The notes beneath the pieces were generated by a model. It worked only from the letters and a program-made list of their open reading frames with translations, had not been told where the DNA came from and did no database searches. Position numbers and translations under genes: made by a program. From contig NZ_JAPFQL010000007.1 in the NCBI RefSeq assembly GCF_028446585.1, positions 1 through 64,000 on the forward strand: DNA of 64,000 nucleotides, written 5' to 3'. The first letter of the stretch is position 1; each line of letters starts with the position of its first letter. Below are positions 12,589 to 23,529 of this stretch, piece after piece. Source of the stretch: Intrasporangium calvum (GTDB lineage Bacteria > Actinomycetota > Actinomycetes > Actinomycetales > Dermatophilaceae).

Positions 12589-13182
12589 GGCCTCCCATGT
12601 GCGCACCCAGCTTCCTCGACTCCGGCCCAGCGGTGCCGGGTCCACACGTCCACGACGGGCCGATGACCTTCGCACCGACGGCGCTGTCGGCTGGGTGCGG
12701 TCGGGTCTCCAGCCTCGGCCCGTCGTGGCGCCATCCCGTATGCCGCTGGGCCGGGTCCGCGCCCACCTCGACCTGAGCGCCCTCCGCCACCACCACCAAT
12801 CGGGCCGGGGTCCGATCCGTGGTGGGCTCACGCGGCAGACGCCACCGCGTCCCGGGCCCGGGTCCGATGCGTGGTGGGCTCACGCGGCAGACGCCACCAC
12901 GTCCCGGGCCCGGGTCCGATGCGTGGTGGCCCCTTCCCGTATGCCGCTGGGCCGGGTCCGCGCCCACCTCGACCTGAGCGCCCTCCGCCACCACCAATCG
13001 GGCCGGGGTCCGATGCGTGGTGGCCCCTCCGTAGCCTCAGCCGGCTCCGCATCGGCCGCACCGGACACGTCCTGCCAGAAGGCCGGGCTGAAGACCCTGA
13101 TCGGCGCCGGGCTCATCGACGACGTCGCCAAGGGCGGGCTGCCCGGATGCAGCCTTCTGCTCCGGGGCGGGCGTCGTCCTGT
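12589..13182. other. Gene-poor region with nested repeats
   Basis: No convincing coding sequence lies in these 594 bases between the deacetylase and the CarH-like gene. The central part (12734-13023) is a block of repeats described separately. The flanks are GC-rich without obvious signals. A short open frame near 13030-13183 has no start signal or recognisable content. Confidence 0.6.
12734..13023. repeat. Nested A-B-B-A repeat block carrying two 15-mer copies
   Basis: Unit A occurs at 12734-12825 (92 bp) and 12935-13023 (89 bp). The copies differ by one ACC triplet and one base. Each starts with TCCCGTATGCCGCTGGG, so each contains an exact 15-mer (12737-12751 and 12938-12952). Unit B occurs twice in tandem between them, at 12826-12877 and 12878-12929 (52 bp each, one visible difference). 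All four units end with GGTCCGAT, then C or G, then CGTGGTGG. Near-identity of the copies implies recent duplication. Confidence 0.85.
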
Positions 13183-14088
13183 CTAGGCCGGGCGCCGGGA
13201 CGTGAGGGTCGACTCGAGCAGCTCGACCCCCGCCCGGACCTGGTGCCCGAGGGGGACAGAGCCGGCACCGACGTCCTCCTGCCGGCCACCACCCACGAAG
13301 GTGACGACGTCGGGACGGGCGGTGCGCAGCTCCTCGCAGACCTGGCGGGCCGGCACGACGTCGGCTTGCCGCGGCACCGCGAGGACCACCGCGGCGGCGG
13401 CTCGCGCTCCGACTGCCGCCACCCAGTCCCCCGCGGGGAGGTCGGCTCCGAGGTAGGCCGTCGAGAAGCCCGCTCTGCGCAGGCCGACGGCGAAGGCCAG
13501 GATCCCCAGCTCGTGCCGGGCGCCCGGCGGCAGGCCCAGGGCGACCACCGGACCGACGGCGCGACCTCCGGCCGCCTCGTAGGCCGCGGCCAGCCGGCGC
13601 TGGATCGCATAGCTGAGCAGGTGCTCACCCGCAACGGTGATGCGCCCGTCGGCCCAGGAGTCACCGATGACGACGAGTGCGGGCATGAGCCAGTCGTCGA
13701 CGACTCGCTCGAAGGCCGCCCGTGCGAAAGCGTCGTCGAGAACGTCCGACACCCGGGCCGGGTCCAGCGCGGCCGCGGCCTCGACGAGCTCGGCCACGAG
13801 GTCATCCGAGACGGCCCCGGCGACAGCACTGCCTGGAGCCAGCCCCCGACCGGGCACTGAGCCCCCACTGCTGAGGCGCGCCTTGGTCTCGGCGGCCGCC
13901 TCACGGGCCGACCACCCCTCCTGGACCAGAGCCGCCATGATGCCGAGGGCGCGCAGGTCCTCCGCCGAGTAGAGGCGGTAGCGGCCGTCGGACCGTGCCG
14001 GGCTCACGACGCCATAGCGCCGCTCCCACGCCCTGAGGGTGGACAGGCTGATCCCCGTCAGCTCGGCCGCACGTTTGATGGTGTACAT
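13183..14088 (-). CDS. CarH/LitR-type B12-dependent photoreceptor repressor (MerR family)
   Basis: The 301-residue protein has an N-terminal MerR winged-helix domain (YTIKRAAELTGISLSTLRAWERRYG) and a C-terminal cobalamin module. The helical cap motif WADGRITVAGEH matches the W-x9-EH signature of light-sensing B12 proteins. The Rossmann part contains GARHELG, where the His is the expected lower cobalt ligand; the acidic residue usual two before it is Ala. Such proteins bind adenosylcobalamin as dark tetramers, repress DNA and fall apart in light. It lies 25 bp downstream of the SRPBCC gene in one transcript, divergent from photolyase and lipid genes, which are the classical targets. Confidence 0.88.
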   Translation of the reverse strand: MYTIKRAAELTGISLSTLRAWERRYGVVSPARSDGRYRLYSAEDLRALGIMAALVQEGWSAREAAAETKARLSSGGSVPGRGLAPGSAVAGAVSDDLVAELVEAAAALDPARVSDVLDDAFARAAFERVVDDWLMPALVVIGDSWADGRITVAGEHLLSYAIQRRLAAAYEAAGGRAVGPVVALGLPPGARHELGILAFAVGLRRAGFSTAYLGADLPAGDWVAAVGARAAAAVVLAVPRQADVVPARQVCEELRTARPDVVTFVGGGRQEDVGAGSVPLGHQVRAGVELLESTLTSRRPA

Positions 14089-14092
14089 GGTT

Positions 14093-14113
14093 TGTCCAGT
14101 CTAGGTCTGGACA
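14093..14113. promoter_or_regulatory. Palindrome over the CarH-gene ribosome site
   Basis: TGTCCAG and CTGGACA form perfect 7-base arms around TCTAGGT, in the gap between the SRPBCC stop and the CarH start. One arm includes the only ribosome-site-like sequence (GGACA on the minus strand). A hairpin could therefore limit translation, or the palindrome may be a protein site. The function is inferred. Confidence 0.5.
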
Positions 14114-14542
14114 TCACAGCGCGTGCAGGGCGCGCCGCAACCCGTCGGCTCCGTCGTCCACGAGCCGCTTCAGGGCCGGCGCCAGCAGGGGGGCGGCCAC
14201 CTTGCGCCACCCCTTGAGCTCGAAGCTCGCGGAGTAGGTCACCGTCGAGCCGGAAGCGGCGCCGTCGATGGTCATGTCGTCATGGGCGACCAGGCTGGAG
14301 TTCTCGCCCCGCAGCACGATGCGGCGCCCGGGCTCGAGCTGCGTGACGACGTAGCTCACCTCCGCTTCGCGGCCCATGAACCGGGAGACGTTCCGATACC
14401 GCGTGCCGACGCCACCGTCACCCGAGACCCGCTCGGTGCGCACGGTGGCTGGATCCCACTCCGTCGTCGTCGTGAAGTCCGACAGGTAGGCGAAGACCCG
14501 GTCGGCAGGGGCCGGGACGGTGAGTGTGCGAACGAACTGCAT
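14114..14542 (-). CDS. SRPBCC-family (START/polyketide-cyclase-like) protein
   Basis: The 142-residue protein starts MQFVRTLTVPAPADRVFAYL and continues with DFTTTTEWDP, the usual opening of SRPBCC proteins. These have a deep hydrophobic ligand pocket and often bind lipids, pigments or polyketides. The ATG at 14542 has GGAGGA upstream; an earlier in-frame start is less likely. It is the first gene of a two-gene transcript with the CarH-like repressor and faces the light-induced operon. Its ligand is unknown, though a lipid or carotenoid-like molecule fits the neighbourhood. Confidence 0.75.
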   Translation of the reverse strand: MQFVRTLTVPAPADRVFAYLSDFTTTTEWDPATVRTERVSGDGGVGTRYRNVSRFMGREAEVSYVVTQLEPGRRIVLRGENSSLVAHDDMTIDGAASGSTVTYSASFELKGWRKVAAPLLAPALKRLVDDGADGLRRALHAL

Positions 14543-14561
14543 GGGGTCCTCCTCGATAACC

Positions 14562-14591
14562 TTTGACAAACCTTATACAGAGACTCTACAT
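14562..14591 (+). promoter_or_regulatory. CarH-type operator and promoter of the photolyase operon
   Basis: Three 8-base elements lie exactly 11 bp apart: TTTGACAA (14562-14569), TTATACAG (14573-14580) and CTCTACAT (14584-14591). CarH-type repressors are known to bind 11-bp-spaced direct repeats with an nTnTACAn core. The second and third elements match it fully and the first differs by one base. The first contains TTGACA, a consensus -35, and a plausible -10 TACATT follows at 14587-14592, 18 bases on. A bound tetramer would cover the promoter. The site also lies before the divergent SRPBCC-carH pair, so autoregulation is likely. Confidence 0.75.
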
Positions 14592-14682
14592 TGACGAACA
14601 GGCCAGGGAAAGCCCATCCAGCCCCGACTCGGCTCCGAACGGCTGGCCATCCGCACCCCACGCAGTCCCCCGAGGGAGCACC

Positions 14683-15963
14683 ATGAACCAGCGCCGCCAA
14701 CCGACCACCGCTGTCATCGGCGCCGGCGTCGCCGGCCTGACCGCGGCCCACGTGATGTCCCGCACCGACGCCGTGACGCTCTTCGAGGCGGACCAGCGGG
14801 TCGGCGGGCACGCCCACACCCACACGGTCCCGGCCCCGGACCAGGGGGCGGGCGCCGATCCCCTCCGCGTGGACAGTGGCTTCATCGTCCACAACGAGCG
14901 GACCTACCCGCACCTGCTGCGACTCTTCCGCGAGCTCGACGTCGAGACCCGGCCAACCGAGATGAGCATGAGCATCACGTGCGAGCAGTGCGGGCTCTCC
15001 TACGCGGGAGGCCTCGGCCTGCGCGGCATCCTCGCCCAGCCGGGCCGGGCCGCGGACCCGCGGTTCATCCGGCTCCTGACCGAGGTCCCTCGTTTCCACC
15101 GCGCGGCGCGACGGCTCCTCGAGGACCCGTCCACCGACCCGACGTGGGGCCAGTTCCTCCGGGACGGAGGGTTCTCGACCTACTTCGTCCGGCACTTCGC
15201 CATCCCGCTCGTCGCCTGCGTCTGGTCCTGCGGAGACCTCGACGCCGAGACCTACCCGGCCCGGCACCTCTTCCAGTTCCTCGACCACCACGGCATGCTC
15301 ACCGTGACGGGCTCCCCCCAGTGGCGCACCGTGGTCGGCGGGTCGGCAACGTACGTGGACCGCCTGGTCTCCCGGCTTCCCGACGTCCGCCGCTCCGCGC
15401 CGGTCACGGCCGTGGAGCGCCACGACGACGGGGTCGATGTCCGCGTCGGGGACGCAGCACCAGAGCGCTTCGACCGCGTGGTGATCGCCACGCACGCCAA
15501 CCAGGCCCTCGACCTGCTCGCCGATGCGACGCCGCAGGAGAAGGAGGACCTGGCCGCGATCCGCTACTCACGCAACACCGTGTGGCTCCATCGCGACTCC
15601 GCCGTCCTGCCCTCCGCCCAGCAGGCCCGGGCCTCGTGGAACTACCGGATGCGCTCCTGCGACGCCCCCAGCTCGCACGTCGCGGTCAGCTACTGGATGA
15701 ACCGGCTGCAGGGCCTGCCCGGCCCCGACGAGCACGTCGTCACCCTCGATCCCGAGGGCCTGGTCGACCCGGCCTCCGTCACGGCCGAGATGTCCTATGA
15801 GCACCCGATCTTCACCGGCGAGGCCGTCGCGGCGGCGAGCCGGCTCCGCACCGCGGGCGGGGAACGCCTGGCCTTCGCCGGCGCCCACCTGGGCTGGGGC
15901 TTCCACGAGGACGGCTGCCGCTCCGGAGTCGAGGCCGCCGCGTCCTTCGGGGTGACCTGGTGA
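14683..15963 (+). CDS. FAD-dependent amine-oxidase-like oxidoreductase
   Basis: The 426-residue protein has the FAD-binding motif VIGAGVAGLTAAHV at residues 11-24, the following acidic dinucleotide-binding position in FEADQRVGGHAHTH, and the amine-oxidase-like C-terminal signature (FAGAHLGWGFHEDGCRSG). Relatives sit in the conserved LitR/CarH-photolyase clusters beside DUF1365 and cyclopropane-synthase genes, and may oxidise or desaturate lipids. The ATG at 14683 follows GAGGGAG. It is the first gene of a tightly overlapping operon: its stop overlaps the GTG of the next gene by 4 bases. Confidence 0.82.
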   Translation: MNQRRQPTTAVIGAGVAGLTAAHVMSRTDAVTLFEADQRVGGHAHTHTVPAPDQGAGADPLRVDSGFIVHNERTYPHLLRLFRELDVETRPTEMSMSITCEQCGLSYAGGLGLRGILAQPGRAADPRFIRLLTEVPRFHRAARRLLEDPSTDPTWGQFLRDGGFSTYFVRHFAIPLVACVWSCGDLDAETYPARHLFQFLDHHGMLTVTGSPQWRTVVGGSATYVDRLVSRLPDVRRSAPVTAVERHDDGVDVRVGDAAPERFDRVVIATHANQALDLLADATPQEKEDLAAIRYSRNTVWLHRDSAVLPSAQQARASWNYRMRSCDAPSSHVAVSYWMNRLQGLPGPDEHVVTLDPEGLVDPASVTAEMSYEHPIFTGEAVAAASRLRTAGGERLAFAGAHLGWGFHEDGCRSGVEAAASFGVTW

Positions 15964-16715
15964 CGACCACCGTCACACCCCCACCGGTCCCGAGCCTCGT
16001 CGAGGGGACGGTCTCGCACACACGCCACACCCCGCTGACGCACCGCTTCCGCCACCGCCACTTCCAGTGGCTCGTCGACGTGGACGACCTCCCCCGACTG
16101 CCCTGGCCCACCTCCCTGCTCGCCCGGTTCGACGCCGCCGACCACCTCGACGGCGGACGGCTCGGCGGCGGCATCCGCGGCGACCTCGACCGGTTCCTCG
16201 CGGCCCGCGGGGTCTCCCTGCCGCAGAACAGCCGCGTCCTCATGCTCGCCCACGCACGCTCCCTCGGGCACGTCTTCGACCCGCTCACCGTCTACTGGTG
16301 CATCGCCCCGGACGGCGAGCTCCTGGCCACCGTCCTCGAGGTGCACAACACCTACCGCGGACGCCACACCTACCTCATCCAGGTCGACGACCGCGGTCGA
16401 GCCGCCGTCGACAAGGCCTTCTACGTCTCCCCGTTCAACGACGTCTCGGGGTCCTACGACATCCGCCTCGTCCTCGAGGAGCGACGCGTCGCCGTCGCGA
16501 TCCGACTCAACCGCGACGGCACGACCGTCCTCGACGCCGCGGTCGCCGGTCGGCCGATCCCGGCCACCACGCGCGCCCTGCTGTCCACCACCGTCCGTCA
16601 CGCCTTCATGACCCACCGCGTCACGGCCCTCATCCGGTGGCACGGCGTGCGACTCTGGATGCGGCGCCTGCCCGTGGTCCCCCGCCCACACCGCCTGGAG
16701 GAGGCAGTCCGATGA
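15960..16715 (+). CDS. DUF1365 family protein
   Basis: The 251-residue protein matches DUF1365: an opening TVSHTRHTPLTHRFRHRHF, then DPLTVYWCIAPDGELLATVLEVHNTYRGRHTY-type sequence, and a conserved FYVSPFND. No catalytic activity is established for this family. It almost always travels with the FAD oxidoreductase and the cyclopropane synthase found on either side here, so it probably works in the same lipid modification. The GTG start overlaps the preceding stop and its own stop overlaps the next ATG. Confidence 0.85.
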   Translation: MTTTVTPPPVPSLVEGTVSHTRHTPLTHRFRHRHFQWLVDVDDLPRLPWPTSLLARFDAADHLDGGRLGGGIRGDLDRFLAARGVSLPQNSRVLMLAHARSLGHVFDPLTVYWCIAPDGELLATVLEVHNTYRGRHTYLIQVDDRGRAAVDKAFYVSPFNDVSGSYDIRLVLEERRVAVAIRLNRDGTTVLDAAVAGRPIPATTRALLSTTVRHAFMTHRVTALIRWHGVRLWMRRLPVVPRPHRLEEAVR

Positions 16716-18031
16716 CCACGATCCAGCCCCAGCCCATTGTCCCGACACTCACCCCGATCCGGTTGCGAGCCAAGCTGGCCCGCACCATCTTCGAGCAGGT
16801 CCTCGACCGCGTGCCCGTCGACGTCACACTCCCCGACGGCACCCCGCTCCGACGGTCAGCGGACAGCGGCACCGAGCCCAGCGGCATACGGCCTGGTGTC
16901 GAGCTGCGACGGCCGGCGGCCTTCTTCGACCGCCTCGCCCACCACCCGAAGATCGGCATCGGCGAGGCCTACATGGCCGGCGACTGGCGCGCCGCCCCGG
17001 GCACGGACCTCGCCGACGTGCTGAGGCCGTTCGCCGAGCGCCTCACCACGGCGATCCCGAAGCACTGGGTCGCCCTGCGCCAGGTCGTCGACCGGGCCAT
17101 CCCGCACGAGCAGCGCAACACGCTGACGGGCTCGCGCCGCAACATCGAGGCGCACTACGACCTGTCCAACGACCTCTTCGCCGCGTTCCTCGACGAGACG
17201 CTCACCTACAGCTCGGCGCTCTTCGACCGGGCCGCCCCGCTCGAGGAGCAGACGCTCGAGGACGCACAGCTGCGCAAGGTCCACGCCATCCTCGACGACG
17301 CCCGCGTCACCGCGGGCACCCGCGTCCTGGAGATCGGCACCGGCTGGGGCACCCTCGCGATCGAGGCGGCCAAGCGCGGCGCCCACGTGACGACGCTGAC
17401 GCTCTCGCGCGAGCAGGCCGCCCTGGCCCGCGAGCGCGCCGCGGCTGCCGGCGTCGCGGAGCGCATCGACATCCGGCTCGAGGACTACCGGGAGGCGCGC
17501 GGCAGCTACGACGCGATCGTCTCGGTGGAGATGATCGAGGCGGTCGGTGAGGAGTACTGGCCGACGTACTTCCAGGCGATCGAGGGCCTGCTCGCCCCCG
17601 GTGGCGTCGCCGCGATCCAGGCGATCCTCATGTCGCACGACCGCTATCTCGTGACGCGCCGCTCCTATGGCTGGATCCAGAAGCACATCTTCCCCGGCGG
17701 CCTCATCCCCAGCCTGCGCGCCATCACCGAGGTGACGCACCGGCACACGGACCTGCGCGTGGCGGGCGTGCGGGCCTTCGGGCGTGACTACGCCGAGACG
17801 TTGCGGCGCTGGCGGGCCACGTTCATGGAGCAGTGGCCCCACGTGGAGGGGCTCGGCTTCGACGAGACCTTCCGCAACAAGTGGGAGTTCTACCTGGCCT
17901 ACTGCGAGGCCGGTTTCGCGTCCGGCTACCTCGACGTCGCGCAGATCCGCTTCGAGCGGCAGGGACCGGGCTTGGCCAGCGGTGGCAGTGACGTCGCCGG
18001 CGCCGCCATCGGCATCCTGGACGCCGCGTGA
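16712..18031 (+). CDS. Cyclopropane-fatty-acyl-phospholipid synthase family methyltransferase
   Basis: The 439-residue enzyme shows the SAM motif VLEIGTGWGTLAIEAA near residue 205, NIEAHYDLSNDLFAAFLDETLTYS-type sequence before it, and YCEAGF near the C-terminus, where the family has an active-site Cys. Homologues add a methylene or methyl group from SAM to double bonds of phospholipid acyl chains. In light-induced clusters this may protect membranes from singlet oxygen. Start and stop overlap the flanking genes by 4 bases. A 15-mer copy at 16876-16890 is read in frame as PSGIR in the variable N-terminal domain. Confidence 0.87.
   Translation: MTTIQPQPIVPTLTPIRLRAKLARTIFEQVLDRVPVDVTLPDGTPLRRSADSGTEPSGIRPGVELRRPAAFFDRLAHHPKIGIGEAYMAGDWRAAPGTDLADVLRPFAERLTTAIPKHWVALRQVVDRAIPHEQRNTLTGSRRNIEAHYDLSNDLFAAFLDETLTYSSALFDRAAPLEEQTLEDAQLRKVHAILDDARVTAGTRVLEIGTGWGTLAIEAAKRGAHVTTLTLSREQAALARERAAAAGVAERIDIRLEDYREARGSYDAIVSVEMIEAVGEEYWPTYFQAIEGLLAPGGVAAIQAILMSHDRYLVTRRSYGWIQKHIFPGGLIPSLRAITEVTHRHTDLRVAGVRAFGRDYAETLRRWRATFMEQWPHVEGLGFDETFRNKWEFYLAYCEAGFASGYLDVAQIRFERQGPGLASGGSDVAGAAIGILDAA
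16876..16890 (-). repeat. Dispersed 15-mer copy in the cyclopropane-synthase gene
   Basis: This is an exact GCCCAGCGGCATACG, read in frame as PSGIR. Confidence 0.9.
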
Positions 18032-18780
18032 GCCGGGCGGTCCGGGGCGAGCGGATCTGGGTCGTCGGGGCGTCCAGTGGCATCGGCGCCGAGCTGGCGC
18101 GCGAGCTCGTCCGGCGCGGCGCCGTCGTCGCTATCAGCGGCCGACGGACCGACGAGCTCGACACGGTGTCCTCGGGCGACATGGTGACCGTCCCCCTCGA
18201 CGTCACCGACACGGCTGCCGTCGACGCAGCCGCGGCGACGGTCCGCGAGCGCCTCGGCGGTATCGACACCGTCATCCACAGCGCCGGCTACTGGAAGCAG
18301 TTCGACGCCGCCACGTGGGACCGCGAGGTCTTCGCGCGCCACGTCGAGGTGAACCTGCTCGGCCTCAACAACGTCCTCGCGGCCGTCGTCCCCGGGCTCG
18401 TCGCCCAGGGCAGCGGCCACGTGGTCGGCATCGCGTCGGTCGCGGGCTACCGCGGGCTCGCCGGGTCGGAGGCCTACGGCGCCACCAAGGCGGCCCAGCT
18501 CAACCTCCTGGAGGCCATGCGGGCCTCCCTGTCGCCGCGCGGAGTTCGCGTCACGACGGTGGCCCCGGGCTTCGTCCGCACGGAGATGACGTCGGTCAAC
18601 GACTTCCCGATGCCGTTCCTCATCGACGCCGACGAGGCCGCGCGGACGATCGCTGACGGCCTCGAGCGTGGGTACGAGAACATCGTGTTCCCCAAACGGA
18701 TGGCGGTCGCGGCGAGCGTCGCCCGCCTCGTCCCCGGCCGGGTGTGGACGGCGCTCAGCACGCGAGGTGCCCGGGCGTGA
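18028..18780 (+). CDS. Short-chain dehydrogenase/reductase
   Basis: The 250-residue protein is a classical SDR. It has the cofactor loop GASSGIGAELA (residues about 14-24), the strand ending VIHSAGY, the catalytic pair in YGATKAA with its preceding Ser region GIASVAGY, and PGFVRTEM after the active site. The loop after the second strand, SGRRTDEL, has Arg residues that suggest NADPH. The substrate is unknown; the operon context suggests a lipid. The GTG start overlaps the previous stop. Confidence 0.85.
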   Translation: MSRAVRGERIWVVGASSGIGAELARELVRRGAVVAISGRRTDELDTVSSGDMVTVPLDVTDTAAVDAAAATVRERLGGIDTVIHSAGYWKQFDAATWDREVFARHVEVNLLGLNNVLAAVVPGLVAQGSGHVVGIASVAGYRGLAGSEAYGATKAAQLNLLEAMRASLSPRGVRVTTVAPGFVRTEMTSVNDFPMPFLIDADEAARTIADGLERGYENIVFPKRMAVAASVARLVPGRVWTALSTRGARA

Positions 18781-20144
18781 CGGTCTCGGTCCTCTGGTTC
18801 CGGCGTGACCTGCGGCTGTCGGATCACCCGGCTCTGCTGGCAGCGCTGGACGCGGGGACCTCGGTGCTGCCCGTCTTCGTCCTCGACCCCCGCCTGCTCG
18901 CGCCCGGCCGCCCCCGCTCGCGACGGCTCGTCGCGGCGGTGCGGGCGCTCGCGGCCGCCCTCGATGGGCGCCTCGTCGTCCGCACCGGGAACCCCGGGGA
19001 GGTCGTCCCCGAGCTGGCCCGTGAGGTGGGGGCCGAGACGGTGCACGTGACGCGGGAGACGACGCCCTTCGGGCGCCGCAGGGATGCGGCCGTCGCGGCC
19101 GCGCTGAGCGCTGAGGGTCGGCGCCTGGCGGCCACCGGCACTCCGTATGCCGCTGGGCCCGGTCGCGTGGTCACGCAGAGCGGGGCGGCCTACCGAGTCT
19201 TCGGGCCGTTCGCGAGGGCGTGGCGGGCGCATGGTTCGCCGCCGCCGGCCTCCCCGCCCCTGCGCATCCCGTGGTTCGACGGGGACGTCGGGGGCGTCGC
19301 CCTGCCCGCCGTGTCGGCCGTTGCCTCATCCGGGGGGCTGGCCGGGGAGGTGGCGGCCCGCCAGAAGTGGCTCGACTTCCTCGCCGACGGCAAGCTGGCC
19401 CGATATGGCGAGGATCGCGACCGGCCGGACCTCGACGCGACGAGCCGGATGTCGATCCCGCTGAAGTACGGCGAGATCCACCCTCGGACCCTGCTGGCCG
19501 ACATCGCCTCCCACCCGGACGGCCGCACGAGTGGCGCCGCGACGTTCGTGACGGAGCTGGCGTGGCGGGAGTTCTATGCCGACGTGCTGTGGCACCGCCC
19601 GGAGTCGGCGTGGCAGGACCTGCGGCCGGAGCTCGCCCGAATTCCGTACGACACCGGCCCGGAGACGGACCGGCTCGTCGAGGCCTGGCGCGCCGGACGG
19701 ACCGGCTACCCGATCGTCGACGCGGGCATGCGCCAGCTGCTCGCCGAGGGCTGGATGCACAACCGGCTGCGGATGATCACGGCCAGCTTCCTCACCAAGG
19801 ATCTGCACGTGTGGTGGCCCGCCGGGGCCCGGCACTTCCTCGACCACCTCCTCGACGGCGACATCGCCTCGAACAACCACGGCTGGCAGTGGGTGGCCGG
19901 GACCGGGACCGATGCGGCGCCCTACTTCCGCGTGCTCAACCCACTCCGCCAGGCGCACCGCTTCGACCCCGAGGGCGAGTACGTCCGGCGGTGGGTGCCC
20001 GAGCTGGCCCACCTGCCCGGCGCGGCCGCGCACGAGCCGTGGGACCACCCGAACGGGTATGACCACGGGTATCCCGGCCGCATCGTCGATCACGACGTCG
20101 AGCGCCGGGAGGCCCTGACCCGCTACGAGCTGTCGAGGAGGTGA
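18777..20144 (+). CDS. phr: Deoxyribodipyrimidine photolyase
   Basis: The 455-residue enzyme is a class I CPD photolyase/cryptochrome. It begins VLWFRRDLRLSDHPALL (antenna domain). The FAD domain shows GYPIVDAGMRQLLAEGWMHNRLRM-type sequence, FLTKDLHVWW, and the signature DGDIASNNHGWQWVAGTGTD with its conserved Asn and Trp residues. It repairs UV cyclobutane dimers using blue light. The GTG start overlaps the SDR stop. A 15-mer copy (19144-19158) is read in frame as YAAG in the linker between domains. Light induction through the CarH-like repressor is expected. Confidence 0.93.
   Translation: MTVSVLWFRRDLRLSDHPALLAALDAGTSVLPVFVLDPRLLAPGRPRSRRLVAAVRALAAALDGRLVVRTGNPGEVVPELAREVGAETVHVTRETTPFGRRRDAAVAAALSAEGRRLAATGTPYAAGPGRVVTQSGAAYRVFGPFARAWRAHGSPPPASPPLRIPWFDGDVGGVALPAVSAVASSGGLAGEVAARQKWLDFLADGKLARYGEDRDRPDLDATSRMSIPLKYGEIHPRTLLADIASHPDGRTSGAATFVTELAWREFYADVLWHRPESAWQDLRPELARIPYDTGPETDRLVEAWRAGRTGYPIVDAGMRQLLAEGWMHNRLRMITASFLTKDLHVWWPAGARHFLDHLLDGDIASNNHGWQWVAGTGTDAAPYFRVLNPLRQAHRFDPEGEYVRRWVPELAHLPGAAAHEPWDHPNGYDHGYPGRIVDHDVERREALTRYELSRR
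19144..19158 (+). repeat. Dispersed 15-mer copy in phr
   Basis: This is an exact CGTATGCCGCTGGGC, read in frame as YAAG. Confidence 0.9.
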
Positions 20145-20145
20145 C

Positions 20146-20868
20146 GTGGTGCGAGGCCCCGTCGCCGAGCTGCGCGCCTTTGTCGACGCCGCCCTGCTGA
20201 GGCCCGTCGCCGATGCTCGACCGGATCCCCCCGGGGCCCGGCTCCGGCGCCGCGTCGTCGTGGGCATCAGTCTCGTCGTGGGGGCGGCCCTCTTGGCCTG
20301 GGCGCTGCGGATCCGACCGGGCGACGCGCTGTTCTACGCGGCGACCCTGGGACTGGCTGCTGCCTGGGCCCTCGGGGCGCTGCTCTCGGGCCCCCTCCGC
20401 CTCGGTCTCGGAACCACGCGGCGCGGCGCGCGCGAGCGCCCCGTCGCACAGTCGCTCGCGCTGGGCGGGCTGCTCCTCGCCGTCTTCCTCGCCGGCGCTC
20501 TCGTCGTCGCCCGGGTTCCCGTCCTCCGGGCACCCGTCGACGACCTGCTCGACCACGCTCGCTTCGGGTCCCTCCCCGTCGTGCTCGGCATCACCGTGCT
20601 CAACGGCATCGCCGAGGAGCTCTACTTCCGCGGCGCCCTGTATGCCGCCCTCCCCCGCCACGCGGTTGCCGTCACCACCGTGCTCTACGCGTTGACGACG
20701 GTCGGCAGCGGCGTGCCGCTCCTCGTCCTCGCGGCCGGCGTCGTCGGCCTCGTCACCGCCCTGCAGCGGCGCGTCACCGGGGGAATCCTCGGTCCGGTCA
20801 TCACCCACGTCACGTGGTCGACCGGGATGCTCCTGCTGCTCCCACCCGTCCTCGACCTCGTGAGGTGA
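20146..20868 (+). CDS. CPBP-family intramembrane metalloprotease
   Basis: The 240-residue protein has about six to seven hydrophobic segments and the CPBP/Abi motif EELYFRGAL, whose two Glu and one Arg belong to the active site, followed further on by the family His in THVTW. These membrane proteases relate to the eukaryotic CAAX protease Rce1. Their bacterial substrates are mostly unknown. The GTG start is one base after the photolyase stop, so it belongs to the light operon. Its role there is unclear. Confidence 0.82.
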   Translation: MVRGPVAELRAFVDAALLRPVADARPDPPGARLRRRVVVGISLVVGAALLAWALRIRPGDALFYAATLGLAAAWALGALLSGPLRLGLGTTRRGARERPVAQSLALGGLLLAVFLAGALVVARVPVLRAPVDDLLDHARFGSLPVVLGITVLNGIAEELYFRGALYAALPRHAVAVTTVLYALTTVGSGVPLLVLAAGVVGLVTALQRRVTGGILGPVITHVTWSTGMLLLLPPVLDLVR

Positions 20869-20872
20869 CCGC

Positions 20873-22300
20873 ATGACCGCCACCACCACCCCGGCCAGGA
20901 CCGCCTCGCAGCGGACCGCTCTCGTCACCGGCGCCTCCGGCTACATCGGCGGACAGCTCGTGCCCCGGCTGCTCGCCGAGGGCTGGGCCGTGCGGGTCCT
21001 GACCCGGCGAGCCGGCTCCCTCGACGACCGGCCCTGGGGGAAGCACGTCGACGTCGTCGTGGGGGACGTCGCGGACCGCGCGGACCTCGAAACCGCGCTC
21101 AGCGGCATACGGACTGCGTTCTATCTCGTCCACTCGATGGACGACGAGCCGGGGTTCGCCGAGCGCGACCGCGAGGCGGCAGCCGCCTTCGGCGCGGTCG
21201 CCCGGGAGCAGGGCGTGTCCCGGATCGTCTACCTCGGCGGACTCCACCCCGACGGTGAGGAGCTCTCGCCGCACCTCGCCTCGCGCGTGGAGGTCGGGCG
21301 GATCCTCCTCGAGTCGGGCGTCCCGACGGCGGTGCTGCAGGCCGCGGTCGTCCTGGGCGACGGGTCGGTGTCGTTCGACATGCTGCGCCACCTCACCACG
21401 CGGCTGCCCGCGATGGTGGCGCCGAAGTGGCTGGACAACCGGATCCAGCCCATCGCCATCGACGACGTGGTCACCCTCCTCGCGGGAGCGGCCGAGCTGC
21501 CGACCGACGTCAACCGGACCTTCGACATCGGCGGGCCTGAGGTGCTCACCTACCGCGAGATGATCCAGCGTTTCGCGCAGGTGACCGGGCTGCGCCGCCG
21601 CGTCGTCGTCACGGTGCCGGTGCTGACGCCGCGCCTGGCGAGCCACTGGGTCGGCCTCGTGACGCCCATCGGCGCCGGGATCGCCAAGCCGCTCGTCGGC
21701 AGCCTGGTGCACGAGGTGGTGGCCAAGGAGTCCGACCTGCTCGACCGCGTGCCCGTGCCCGGCGGGCTGACCGGCTTCGACGAGGCGGTGCGCCGGGCGA
21801 TGGAGGGAACCCGGCCCGACACCGCCCTGCGCAACCTCGCGCTCACCGGTGCCGCCGTCACTGCTGCGGCCGTGCTGGGATCGCTTGCCACACAGCCGGA
21901 CTCACGGTGGTATCGGAGCCTTGACCTGCCGCCGTGGCAACCACCGAAGTCGGCCTTTCCGATCGTGTGGAGCCTGCTCTACGCGGACCTCGCAGCGAGC
22001 ACCGCGGCGACCCTGACGAGCCTCGACCGGCGCGGCGACGAAGCGGGTCGCCGCACCTACCTTGCCTCCCTTGGGGCGAACCTGATGCTCAACGCGGGCT
22101 GGAGTGTGGTGTTCTGGCGGGGCCGGAGCCCGGGCGCAGCAGCGCTCGAGTCCGCCGCCCTCACGGCGAGCGGAGCCGACCTGGTCCGGCGATCCGCAGC
22201 CGCCAACCCGGTCGCCGGTCGGGCGCTCGTGCCCTACGTCGCCTGGTGCGGCTTCGCGACGGTGCTCAGCGCGGTGATCCACCGCCGCAACCGTCGATGA
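20873..22300 (+). CDS. NAD(P)-binding epimerase-like protein fused to TspO
   Basis: Residues 1-310 form an atypical SDR/epimerase with the cofactor motif TGASGYIGGQL, related to DUF2867-type proteins. Residues about 325-475 are a TspO/MBR domain: DLPPWQPPKSAFPIVWSLLYADL is the tryptophan-rich signature, and LNAGWSVVFW and PYVAWCGFATVL match later helices. TspO proteins bind porphyrins and respond to oxidative or light stress. A Trp-rich TspO domain joined to a nucleotide-binding enzyme is unusual. It starts 4 bases after the protease stop and closes the operon, ending only 16 bases from the convergent GlxA-type gene. A 15-mer copy is read as SGIR in the cofactor domain. Confidence 0.82.
   Translation: MTATTTPARTASQRTALVTGASGYIGGQLVPRLLAEGWAVRVLTRRAGSLDDRPWGKHVDVVVGDVADRADLETALSGIRTAFYLVHSMDDEPGFAERDREAAAAFGAVAREQGVSRIVYLGGLHPDGEELSPHLASRVEVGRILLESGVPTAVLQAAVVLGDGSVSFDMLRHLTTRLPAMVAPKWLDNRIQPIAIDDVVTLLAGAAELPTDVNRTFDIGGPEVLTYREMIQRFAQVTGLRRRVVVTVPVLTPRLASHWVGLVTPIGAGIAKPLVGSLVHEVVAKESDLLDRVPVPGGLTGFDEAVRRAMEGTRPDTALRNLALTGAAVTAAAVLGSLATQPDSRWYRSLDLPPWQPPKSAFPIVWSLLYADLAASTAATLTSLDRRGDEAGRRTYLASLGANLMLNAGWSVVFWRGRSPGAAALESAALTASGADLVRRSAAANPVAGRALVPYVAWCGFATVLSAVIHRRNRR
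21097..21111 (-). repeat. Dispersed 15-mer copy in the SDR-TspO gene
   Basis: GCTCAGCGGCATACG is the A variant in reverse orientation, read in frame as SGIR. Confidence 0.85.
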
Positions 22301-22316: not shown

Positions 22317-23351
22317 CTAGTACTGAGGCAATAGTTCCGAAGACACCGTGATCGACCGGTGTTCGGCGGGCCAGGGTGGCACCGGAGGTGGCGTCCGGAC
22401 GTCGCGGCCGGCGAACGTGCGGCGATACTGGAGCGGAGGCAGGCCGACCTCCTTCTGGAAGTGGCTGCGCAGCACGGCTGCCGTGCCGAAACCGCAGGCC
22501 CGCGCGATCCCCTCGACGTCCAGGGTCGTGGTCTCCAGAAGGTGCCTGGCGCGGAGCACTCGCTGAGCGGTGATCCACTTGTGCGGCGTCGTGCCGACCT
22601 CCCGGGCGAAGCGGCGGGCGAAGGTGCGCTCGGACATGGTGGCCCGGGCCGCGAGCGCGGGCACGGAGTGCTCCTCGTCCAGGTGCTGCGCGAGCCAGTC
22701 GAGCAGCTCCCGCAGGCTGTCCGCCGACTCGACCGGCAGGGGCGTCTCGACGAACTGCCGCTGACCGCCGGCCCGGTGCGGCGGGACGACCATGCGGCGC
22801 GCGATCCGGTTCGCGACGTCCGTGCCCAGCTCCTGGCCGACGAGATGGAGGCAGGCGTCGATGCCGGCGGCCGTGCCGGCACTCGTCAGGACGGGTCCGT
22901 CGTCCACGTAGAGCGAGTCAGCGTCGACCCGAGCCTCGGGGAACCGCTCGGCGAGCAGCGTGGAGTGCTTCCAGTGGGTGGCACAGGCGCGACCGTCGAG
23001 GAGACCCGCCGCACCGAGCCAGAAGGCGCCACTGCACACCGACAGGACCCGCGCGCCGCGGGCGACTGCTCCGCGCAGCAGCTCCAGCGCCTCGGGATGG
23101 AAGGGGCCGTCGACCGAGCCGCCGGGAATCGCGATGAGGTCCGCGTCGCGCGCGGCCTCGAACGGGTGCGTGGCGACGACGCCCATGCCGGTCTTGGTCC
23201 GGAGGACCTTGGAAGGATCGGCGGCGCACACCCTGAAGTCGAAAGGGGGGACGCCATCCTCGGTGCGGTCGATCCCGAAGACCTCACACAGCACGGCCAG
23301 CTCGAACGGGGCGACGGGCTCCTCGAGCAGGACGGCGACCGTGTGCAGCAT
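22317..23351 (-). CDS. GlxA-type AraC-family transcriptional regulator
   Basis: The 344-residue regulator has an N-terminal DJ-1/PfpI-like domain (about 1-200), with the nucleophile-elbow sequence VLSVCSGAFWLGAAGLLDG, and a C-terminal AraC double helix-turn-helix (about 225-325; MSERTFARRFAREVGTTPHKWI). The ATG at 23351 gives the usual length. An open frame continues upstream through the palindromes, but that DNA is clearly regulatory. It is divergent from an EamA exporter, its likely target. The palindromes between the two genes are candidate operators. The effector is unknown. Confidence 0.87.
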   Translation of the reverse strand: MLHTVAVLLEEPVAPFELAVLCEVFGIDRTEDGVPPFDFRVCAADPSKVLRTKTGMGVVATHPFEAARDADLIAIPGGSVDGPFHPEALELLRGAVARGARVLSVCSGAFWLGAAGLLDGRACATHWKHSTLLAERFPEARVDADSLYVDDGPVLTSAGTAAGIDACLHLVGQELGTDVANRIARRMVVPPHRAGGQRQFVETPLPVESADSLRELLDWLAQHLDEEHSVPALAARATMSERTFARRFAREVGTTPHKWITAQRVLRARHLLETTTLDVEGIARACGFGTAAVLRSHFQKEVGLPPLQYRRTFAGRDVRTPPPVPPWPAEHRSITVSSELLPQY

Positions 23352-23360
23352 CGCTACAGT

Positions 23361-23440
23361 CTGCCACGAGTGGCAGGAAGAGGGCGAACATCGGCACTTC
23401 TGCCACTGGTGGCAGAAATCATTCACACGAATGATTTCTG
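23361..23440. promoter_or_regulatory. Three perfect palindromes between glxA-type and eamA genes
   Basis: The three sites are CTGCCACGAGTGGCAG (23361-23376; 7-base arms), TTCTGCCACTGGTGGCAGAA (23398-23417; 9-base arms) and CAGAAATCATT / AATGATTTCTG (23413-23440; 11-base arms, 6-base loop CACACG). The first two share CTGCCAC-NN-GTGGCAG and are 39 bp apart centre to centre. They probably form a paired operator for the adjacent regulator or another dimeric repressor. The third overlaps the second and may be a separate site. Confidence 0.75.
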
Positions 23441-23529
23441 CCATGACGACTTCAGTGCGCGCCGGCTCGCGAGCCGGTGAACGGCGAAACTCGCGAGACA
23501 CGCAGGCGCCACCTGCTTACCGTCGTTCC

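Follow-up and report, generated by a model that had tools for sequence, protein, structure and literature searches.

A putative CarH-type light switch over the promoter of a likely furan-fatty-acid and photolyase operon in Intrasporangium calvum

The 64,000-nucleotide stretch of Intrasporangium calvum DNA analysed here (the window) contains a gene for a CarH-like regulator and, divergent from it, an operon whose promoter is overlaid by three tandem 11-bp repeats. We consider it probable that the regulator is a CarH-type repressor that depends on adenosylcobalamin (AdoCbl) in the dark, acts at two operators, O1 and O2, is released by light through a variant photochemistry and controls a furan-fatty-acid/photolyase operon. 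At the level of sequence, the identity of O1 as a CarH-type DNA site and the CarH ancestry of the regulator are well supported; we infer repression, AdoCbl binding, light release and the oligomer state. The regulatory features are as follows.

13183..14088, minus strand: CarH-like regulator of 301 amino acids with MerR HTH, B12-binding_2 and B12-binding domains (Pfam, motifs, fold)
14082..14098, minus strand: operator O2, TGGACAAACCATGTACA, a pair of repeats at 11-bp spacing that covers the start codon of carH (genome pattern scan, relatives)
14098..14103, minus strand: possible -10 element TAGACT of a leaderless or near-leaderless carH promoter
14114..14542, minus strand: SRPBCC (Polyketide_cyc2) protein, encoded by the gene that opens the predicted carH transcription unit (domain match)
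14559..14591, plus strand: operator O1, three tandem 11-bp nnnnTnnACAn repeats at 14559-14569, 14570-14580 and 14581-14591 (repeat match, conservation, shuffles)
14563..14592, plus strand: sigma-70-type promoter TTGACA-18-TACATT of the ufa-phr operon (10/12 matches, 0.0 in shuffles)

Written as TnnACA, the cores of O1 are TTGACA (14563), TATACA (14574) and TCTACA (14585), in exact 11-bp register. With at most one mismatch, the pattern TnnACA-N5-TnnACA-N5-TnnACA has a single occurrence in the window; dinucleotide shuffles give an expectation of 0.01. An earlier note had described three octamers with exact 11-bp steps, and these are present at 14562-14569, 14573-14580 and 14584-14591. The core it assigned to all of them, nTnTACAn, is not matched by the first octamer, TTTGACAA, which fits the published consensus of mapped CarH operators, nnnnTnnACAn (PMC9304148). 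All three repeats match this consensus and lie in tandem over promoter elements. Other exact triples in the 4.12-Mb genome are confined to one period-11 satellite array on contig C86 and were set aside as CarH sites because they lie inside it. The satellite, TCGACAGCCAC-like and located at about 14325-14385 of that contig (G000:C86; L002, L003), mimics CarH repeats.

A promoter scan of region 13000-14900, independent of the repeats, returned TTGACA-18-TACATT as the single sigma-70-type promoter, a match almost never seen in shuffles. The site had been said to overlap a consensus -35; repeat 1 is itself the -35, repeat 2 lies inside the spacer and the -10 falls partly within repeat 3. Read by eye, at least 18 of the 27 aligned regions share a TANNNT hexamer placed at this 18-bp spacing. 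A minus-strand TATAAG considered as the -10 of the SRPBCC-carH unit was dropped, as other genera, by eye, do not have it. The 18-bp spacer and the MerR fold would also suit a light activator that untwists a long-spacer promoter in the classical MerR manner. We regard this as quite improbable, since the repeats are direct and tandem over the -35 to -10 region, not a dyad within a spacer of 19-20 bp, and since those CarH/LitR proteins that have been characterised on such sites act as repressors (PMC9304148, PMC9758184).

Relatives were located by tblastn, through a genome search and in named Terrabacter, Knoellia, Janibacter, Nocardioides, Intrasporangium, Phycicoccus and Pedococcus. In most mapped relatives an SRPBCC-carH pair is divergent from an operon for FAD oxidoreductase, DUF1365 protein, methyltransferase, in some cases SDR, photolyase, Rce1 and NmrA/TspO. 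We compared 27 distinct intergenic regions between FAD oxidoreductase and SRPBCC genes in related genera: 26 contain two tandem TnnACA repeats, and the other (L061) departs by one base. A frequent form of the pair is AACCTTTGACA-RACCTTnnACA. Terrabacter, Janibacter and Nocardioides are among the genera in which repeats 1 and 2 are conserved between the corresponding divergent genes. Repeat 3 is complete in only three of the 27 regions (L010, L011 and L043, from Intrasporangium and one other locus), and many of the others have TCTACG at its position, inside the TANNNT -10. On this alignment, therefore, the conserved core consists of two repeats, and the third has been completed only in particular lineages. 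The three half-sites of the earlier note are thus all present here, but only the first two are broadly conserved, the third being lineage-specific and overlapping the -10. Further repeats were observed in some relatives. Janibacter promoters (L047, L049, L051, L054, L055, L058, L060) carry two separate repeat pairs ~42 bp apart, the second being TGGACAAAGGTTRAACA, and Terrabacter has an extra TGGACG/TGGACA pair downstream. Two Knoellia loci have four or three tandem repeats ~0.5 kb beyond the 3' end of carH (L040:11430 and L046:11475, both on the minus strand); the ufa operon was not found beside carH at either.

The site also co-occurs with the regulator. Exact TNNACARACCTTNNACA occurs in 11 of the 20 family genomes with a CarH homologue and in none of the 16 without (Fisher p = 0.00055, n = 36, a value that ignores phylogenetic relatedness). 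Some of these matches lie away from the operon, and the exact pattern is absent from nearly half of the CarH-bearing genomes (9/20). The reading of the repeats as a CarH-type operator is supported by the published consensus, conservation between genera and co-occurrence with CarH homologues. If O1 were merely a promoter with a TTGACA -35, the 11-bp repeats being incidental and the regulator acting elsewhere, it would be natural for the third repeat to overlap the -10 and to be incomplete in most other genera. This seems hardly probable to us: the second repeat is conserved although no promoter element would be expected at its place in the spacer, an exact second site lies at carH, and the pattern co-occurs with CarH.

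That second site, O2, is another exact CarH-type double repeat, overlooked in the earlier note. A genome-wide scan (4.1 Mb) for TNNACAAACCNTNNACA with at most one mismatch gives two matches, O1 and O2, both exact. The reversed control pattern also gives two matches at this threshold, so the weight rests on the exactness of the O1 and O2 matches; by our own estimate from base composition, about 0.02 exact matches are expected genome-wide. Knoellia and another genome of the genus have T(G/C)GACAAACC immediately before ATGTACA with a TANNCT hexamer ahead. In other genera the ATGTACA, a coding sequence, is retained while the upstream half of O2 is not. Genomes with O2 have TAGACT, TAATCT or TACTCT at the same place, which suggests from sequence that the carH promoter is near-leaderless and autoregulated. 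As O1 and O2 are the only exact TNNACAAACCNTNNACA sites in the genome, autoregulation of carH is supported, and the sequence makes it more credible than it could have appeared when it was first predicted without O2. O1 does lie between carH and the proposed targets, as described before, but an SRPBCC-family gene, syntenic in relatives, intervenes between O1 and carH and thus sits between the two operators. On the other side of carH, between it and a polysaccharide deacetylase gene, window positions 12650-13040 hold 2.5 copies of an imperfect tandem repeat of 52 bp (96%), as well as a 75-bp direct repeat with copies 201 bp apart.

The operon downstream of O1 consists of seven genes.

14683..15963, plus strand: FAD-dependent oxidoreductase of amine oxidase fold, UfaD-like (domains, gene set compared with PMC7380195)
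15960..16715, plus strand: DUF1365 protein, UfaO-like (domain match, 5.5e-67)
16712..18031, plus strand: CMAS/cyclopropane synthase-family methyltransferase, UfaM-like (domain match)
18028..18780, plus strand: short-chain dehydrogenase, SDR (domain match)
18756..20144, plus strand: deoxyribodipyrimidine photolyase (domain match)
20146..20868, plus strand: CAAX/Rce1-like membrane protein (domain match)
20873..22300, plus strand: NmrA/epimerase domain fused to a TspO/MBR domain (domain match)

UfaD, UfaO and UfaM make furan fatty acids, and UfaO has a DUF1365 domain (PMC7380195). In domains and gene neighbourhood the first three genes match these proteins, and we infer a furan fatty acid as the lipid product. 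What had been called a photolyase operon does contain a photolyase gene, and the repeats do overlap its promoter, but it is better described as a probable furan-fatty-acid and photolyase operon. Beyond it, a perfect 15-bp inverted repeat, TGGCAGAAATCATTC, with a 4-bp loop lies at 23410-23443 near the 5' end of an ORF for a DJ-1/PfpI-AraC regulator (22317-23501, minus strand), and is likely an operator.

The CarH-like identity of the regulator, proposed before from the sequence alone, is borne out by the agreement of domains, motifs and predicted fold. Its MerR HTH (PF13411, 52.7 bits) and both B12 domains (PF02607, 47.4 bits; PF02310, 35.8 bits) score above the Pfam cut-offs, and the recognition helix RAWERRY fits RxWERRY. 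The closest relative by sequence in the PDB is T. thermophilus CarH (TtCarH). An AF2 model (pLDDT 89.7) has full-length TtCarH as its best fold match (E 4.4e-18; 5C8D/5C8E matched), and its B12 region also matches photocobilins (Z about 22). Among NCBIfam models the best is NF052513 (TransRegCarH), at 123.9 bits against an equivalog cut-off of 400, which is not reached. A plasmid collection searched for homologues of the regulator as named references returned none.

W145, E155, H156 and H192 of the regulator correspond to W131, E141, H142 and H177 of TtCarH, so that the Wx9EH motif is intact. The signature published for light response, GxxW, EH, GxxH and GxxxP (PMC11796333), is present in full. 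The position of TtCarH His132 is held by A146, and alanine also stands at the position of Glu175, beside the cobalt-ligating histidine. Of the classic D/ExHx2G...SxT/V...GG motif, the His, Gly and GG are kept, while D/E has become Ala and SxV has become AVP. AdoCbl supply is plausible from the gene content, because both BtuR/CobA and PduO-type cobalamin adenosyltransferases are encoded in the genome and CobD/CbiB in the window at about 8.8-9.6 kb.

Among 79 tabulated actinobacterial homologues, the equivalents of W131, E141, H142 and H177 are invariant (79/79), partly by construction, as W, EH and H belonged to the collecting motif. None of the 79 has His at position 132. A loss special to this genus was therefore dropped as an idea, and loss of His132 alone is not new: the residue has been described as variable, with natural Arg, Gln and Tyr reported (PMC11796333). 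In 39 homologues, this regulator among them, D/ExH has lost its acid, and these fall on one side of a branch with support 100/99. Streptomyces-type homologues (L097-L116), mostly outside the strict motif, were left out of the tree except for L103, and the placement of TtCarH is unsure owing to a long branch and partial sequence. That the acid has gone as well, across a whole clade, is not described in the literature we examined. The family also contains another CarH clade (L023-L030, L032) that retains the acid; its genes adjoin FAD oxidoreductase, photolyase or NmrA/TspO genes, and several of its genomes carry an operator of this type.

With neither His132 nor Glu175 equivalents, the photochemistry of TtCarH cannot simply be transferred to this regulator. 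The main rival explanation holds that a CarH-descended repressor remains on the same operators but has lost B12 light sensing, resembling CarA or class V LitR, and answers instead to, for example, an anti-repressor, singlet oxygen or redox state. It draws on the disappearance of His132, Glu175 and the Ser of SxT/V from the regulator's own clade, on Myxococcus CarA, which works at operators of this type without B12 (PMC9304148), and on class V LitR of Micrococcales, described without a B12 domain (PMC9758184). We nevertheless think it unlikely, because Wx9EH, lost in CarA, and the cobalt-ligating His are found in all 79 homologues (in part by construction), both Pfam B12 domains exceed their cut-offs and the GxxW/EH/GxxH/GxxxP signature is intact.

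Under the light-released repressor that we favour, the regulator with adenosylcobalamin would bind the tandem 11-bp repeats of O1 in the dark. This occupancy would block RNA polymerase at TTGACA-18-TACATT and keep ufaD-ufaO-ufaM-SDR-phr-Rce1-NmrA/TspO off, and binding to O2 over its own start codon would provide autoregulation. Light would break the Co-C bond and the protein would leave the DNA, so allowing photolyase to be made together with furan fatty acids, which may protect the membrane against reactive oxygen. The release step would differ in detail from that of TtCarH because the bis-His ligand is absent.

In light-state TtCarH, His132 is the upper ligand, and its role in light release is contested; the H132A variant stayed mostly tetrameric after light, an earlier report of disassembly being acknowledged (PMC10442372). 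It is possible, if on balance slightly doubtful, that the monophyletic actinobacterial clade described here, in which the bis-His upper ligand and the acid partner of the lower axial His are both gone but the adenosyl-contacting residues and the operator are kept, is a natural cobalamin light switch that leaves DNA without the ligand exchange of TtCarH and controls membrane furan lipids and photorepair rather than carotenoids. How Co-C breakage leads to DNA release in CarH is disputed, with His132 at the centre, and a natural family without His132 and the acid but with a conserved operator read-out makes the question testable. If our reading is correct, B12 photoreception is linked to furan fatty acid synthesis; the literature searched contained no paper naming CarH and furan fatty acid together.

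The regulator shares with TtCarH (also called LitR) the MerR-B12_2-B12 architecture, Wx9EH and the lower axial His, and O1 resembles the Thermus operator, in which one of three tandem 11-bp TnnACA repeats holds the -35 (PMC9304148). It differs in its overall sequence (31-34% identity by structural alignment), in Ala for His132, Ala for Glu175 and the degenerate SxT/V, and in an adjacent operon that, unlike the T. thermophilus system, is free of carotenoid genes. The target set is more like that of the Pseudomonas class II LitR proteins (PplR/PmlR2), under which, together with LOV, photolyase, SDR, FAD oxidoreductase and ufaM are light-inducible (PMC9758184). However, class II LitR has kept no more of the B12 region than its four-helix part, senses light through LOV proteins and uses T(G/A)TACA-N12-TGTACA sites, and our regulator falls outside this class with its Rossmann subdomain and 11-bp tandem sites. 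It also falls outside class V LitR, from which it is set apart by the class description, Pfam finding both B12 subdomains, and it is unlike CarA in having the Trp of Wx9EH.

The ufaM-ufaD-ufaO genes of Rhodobacter sphaeroides likewise encode an NAD/FAD-type desaturase, a DUF1365 protein and a SAM methyltransferase, but the work on them concerned the singlet-oxygen response, in chrR mutants, and involved no CarH; orthology with the genes here is a matter of domains and gene order. The blue-light response of Vibrio cholerae involves a MerR-like gene together with phr (PMC5241685). CtMerR of Chloracidobacterium and the photocobilins, whose B12 domains match our model (Z 18-22), also sense light through cobalamin without a His at position 132, although their residue there is Arg, Gln or Tyr and that of the regulator described here is Ala.
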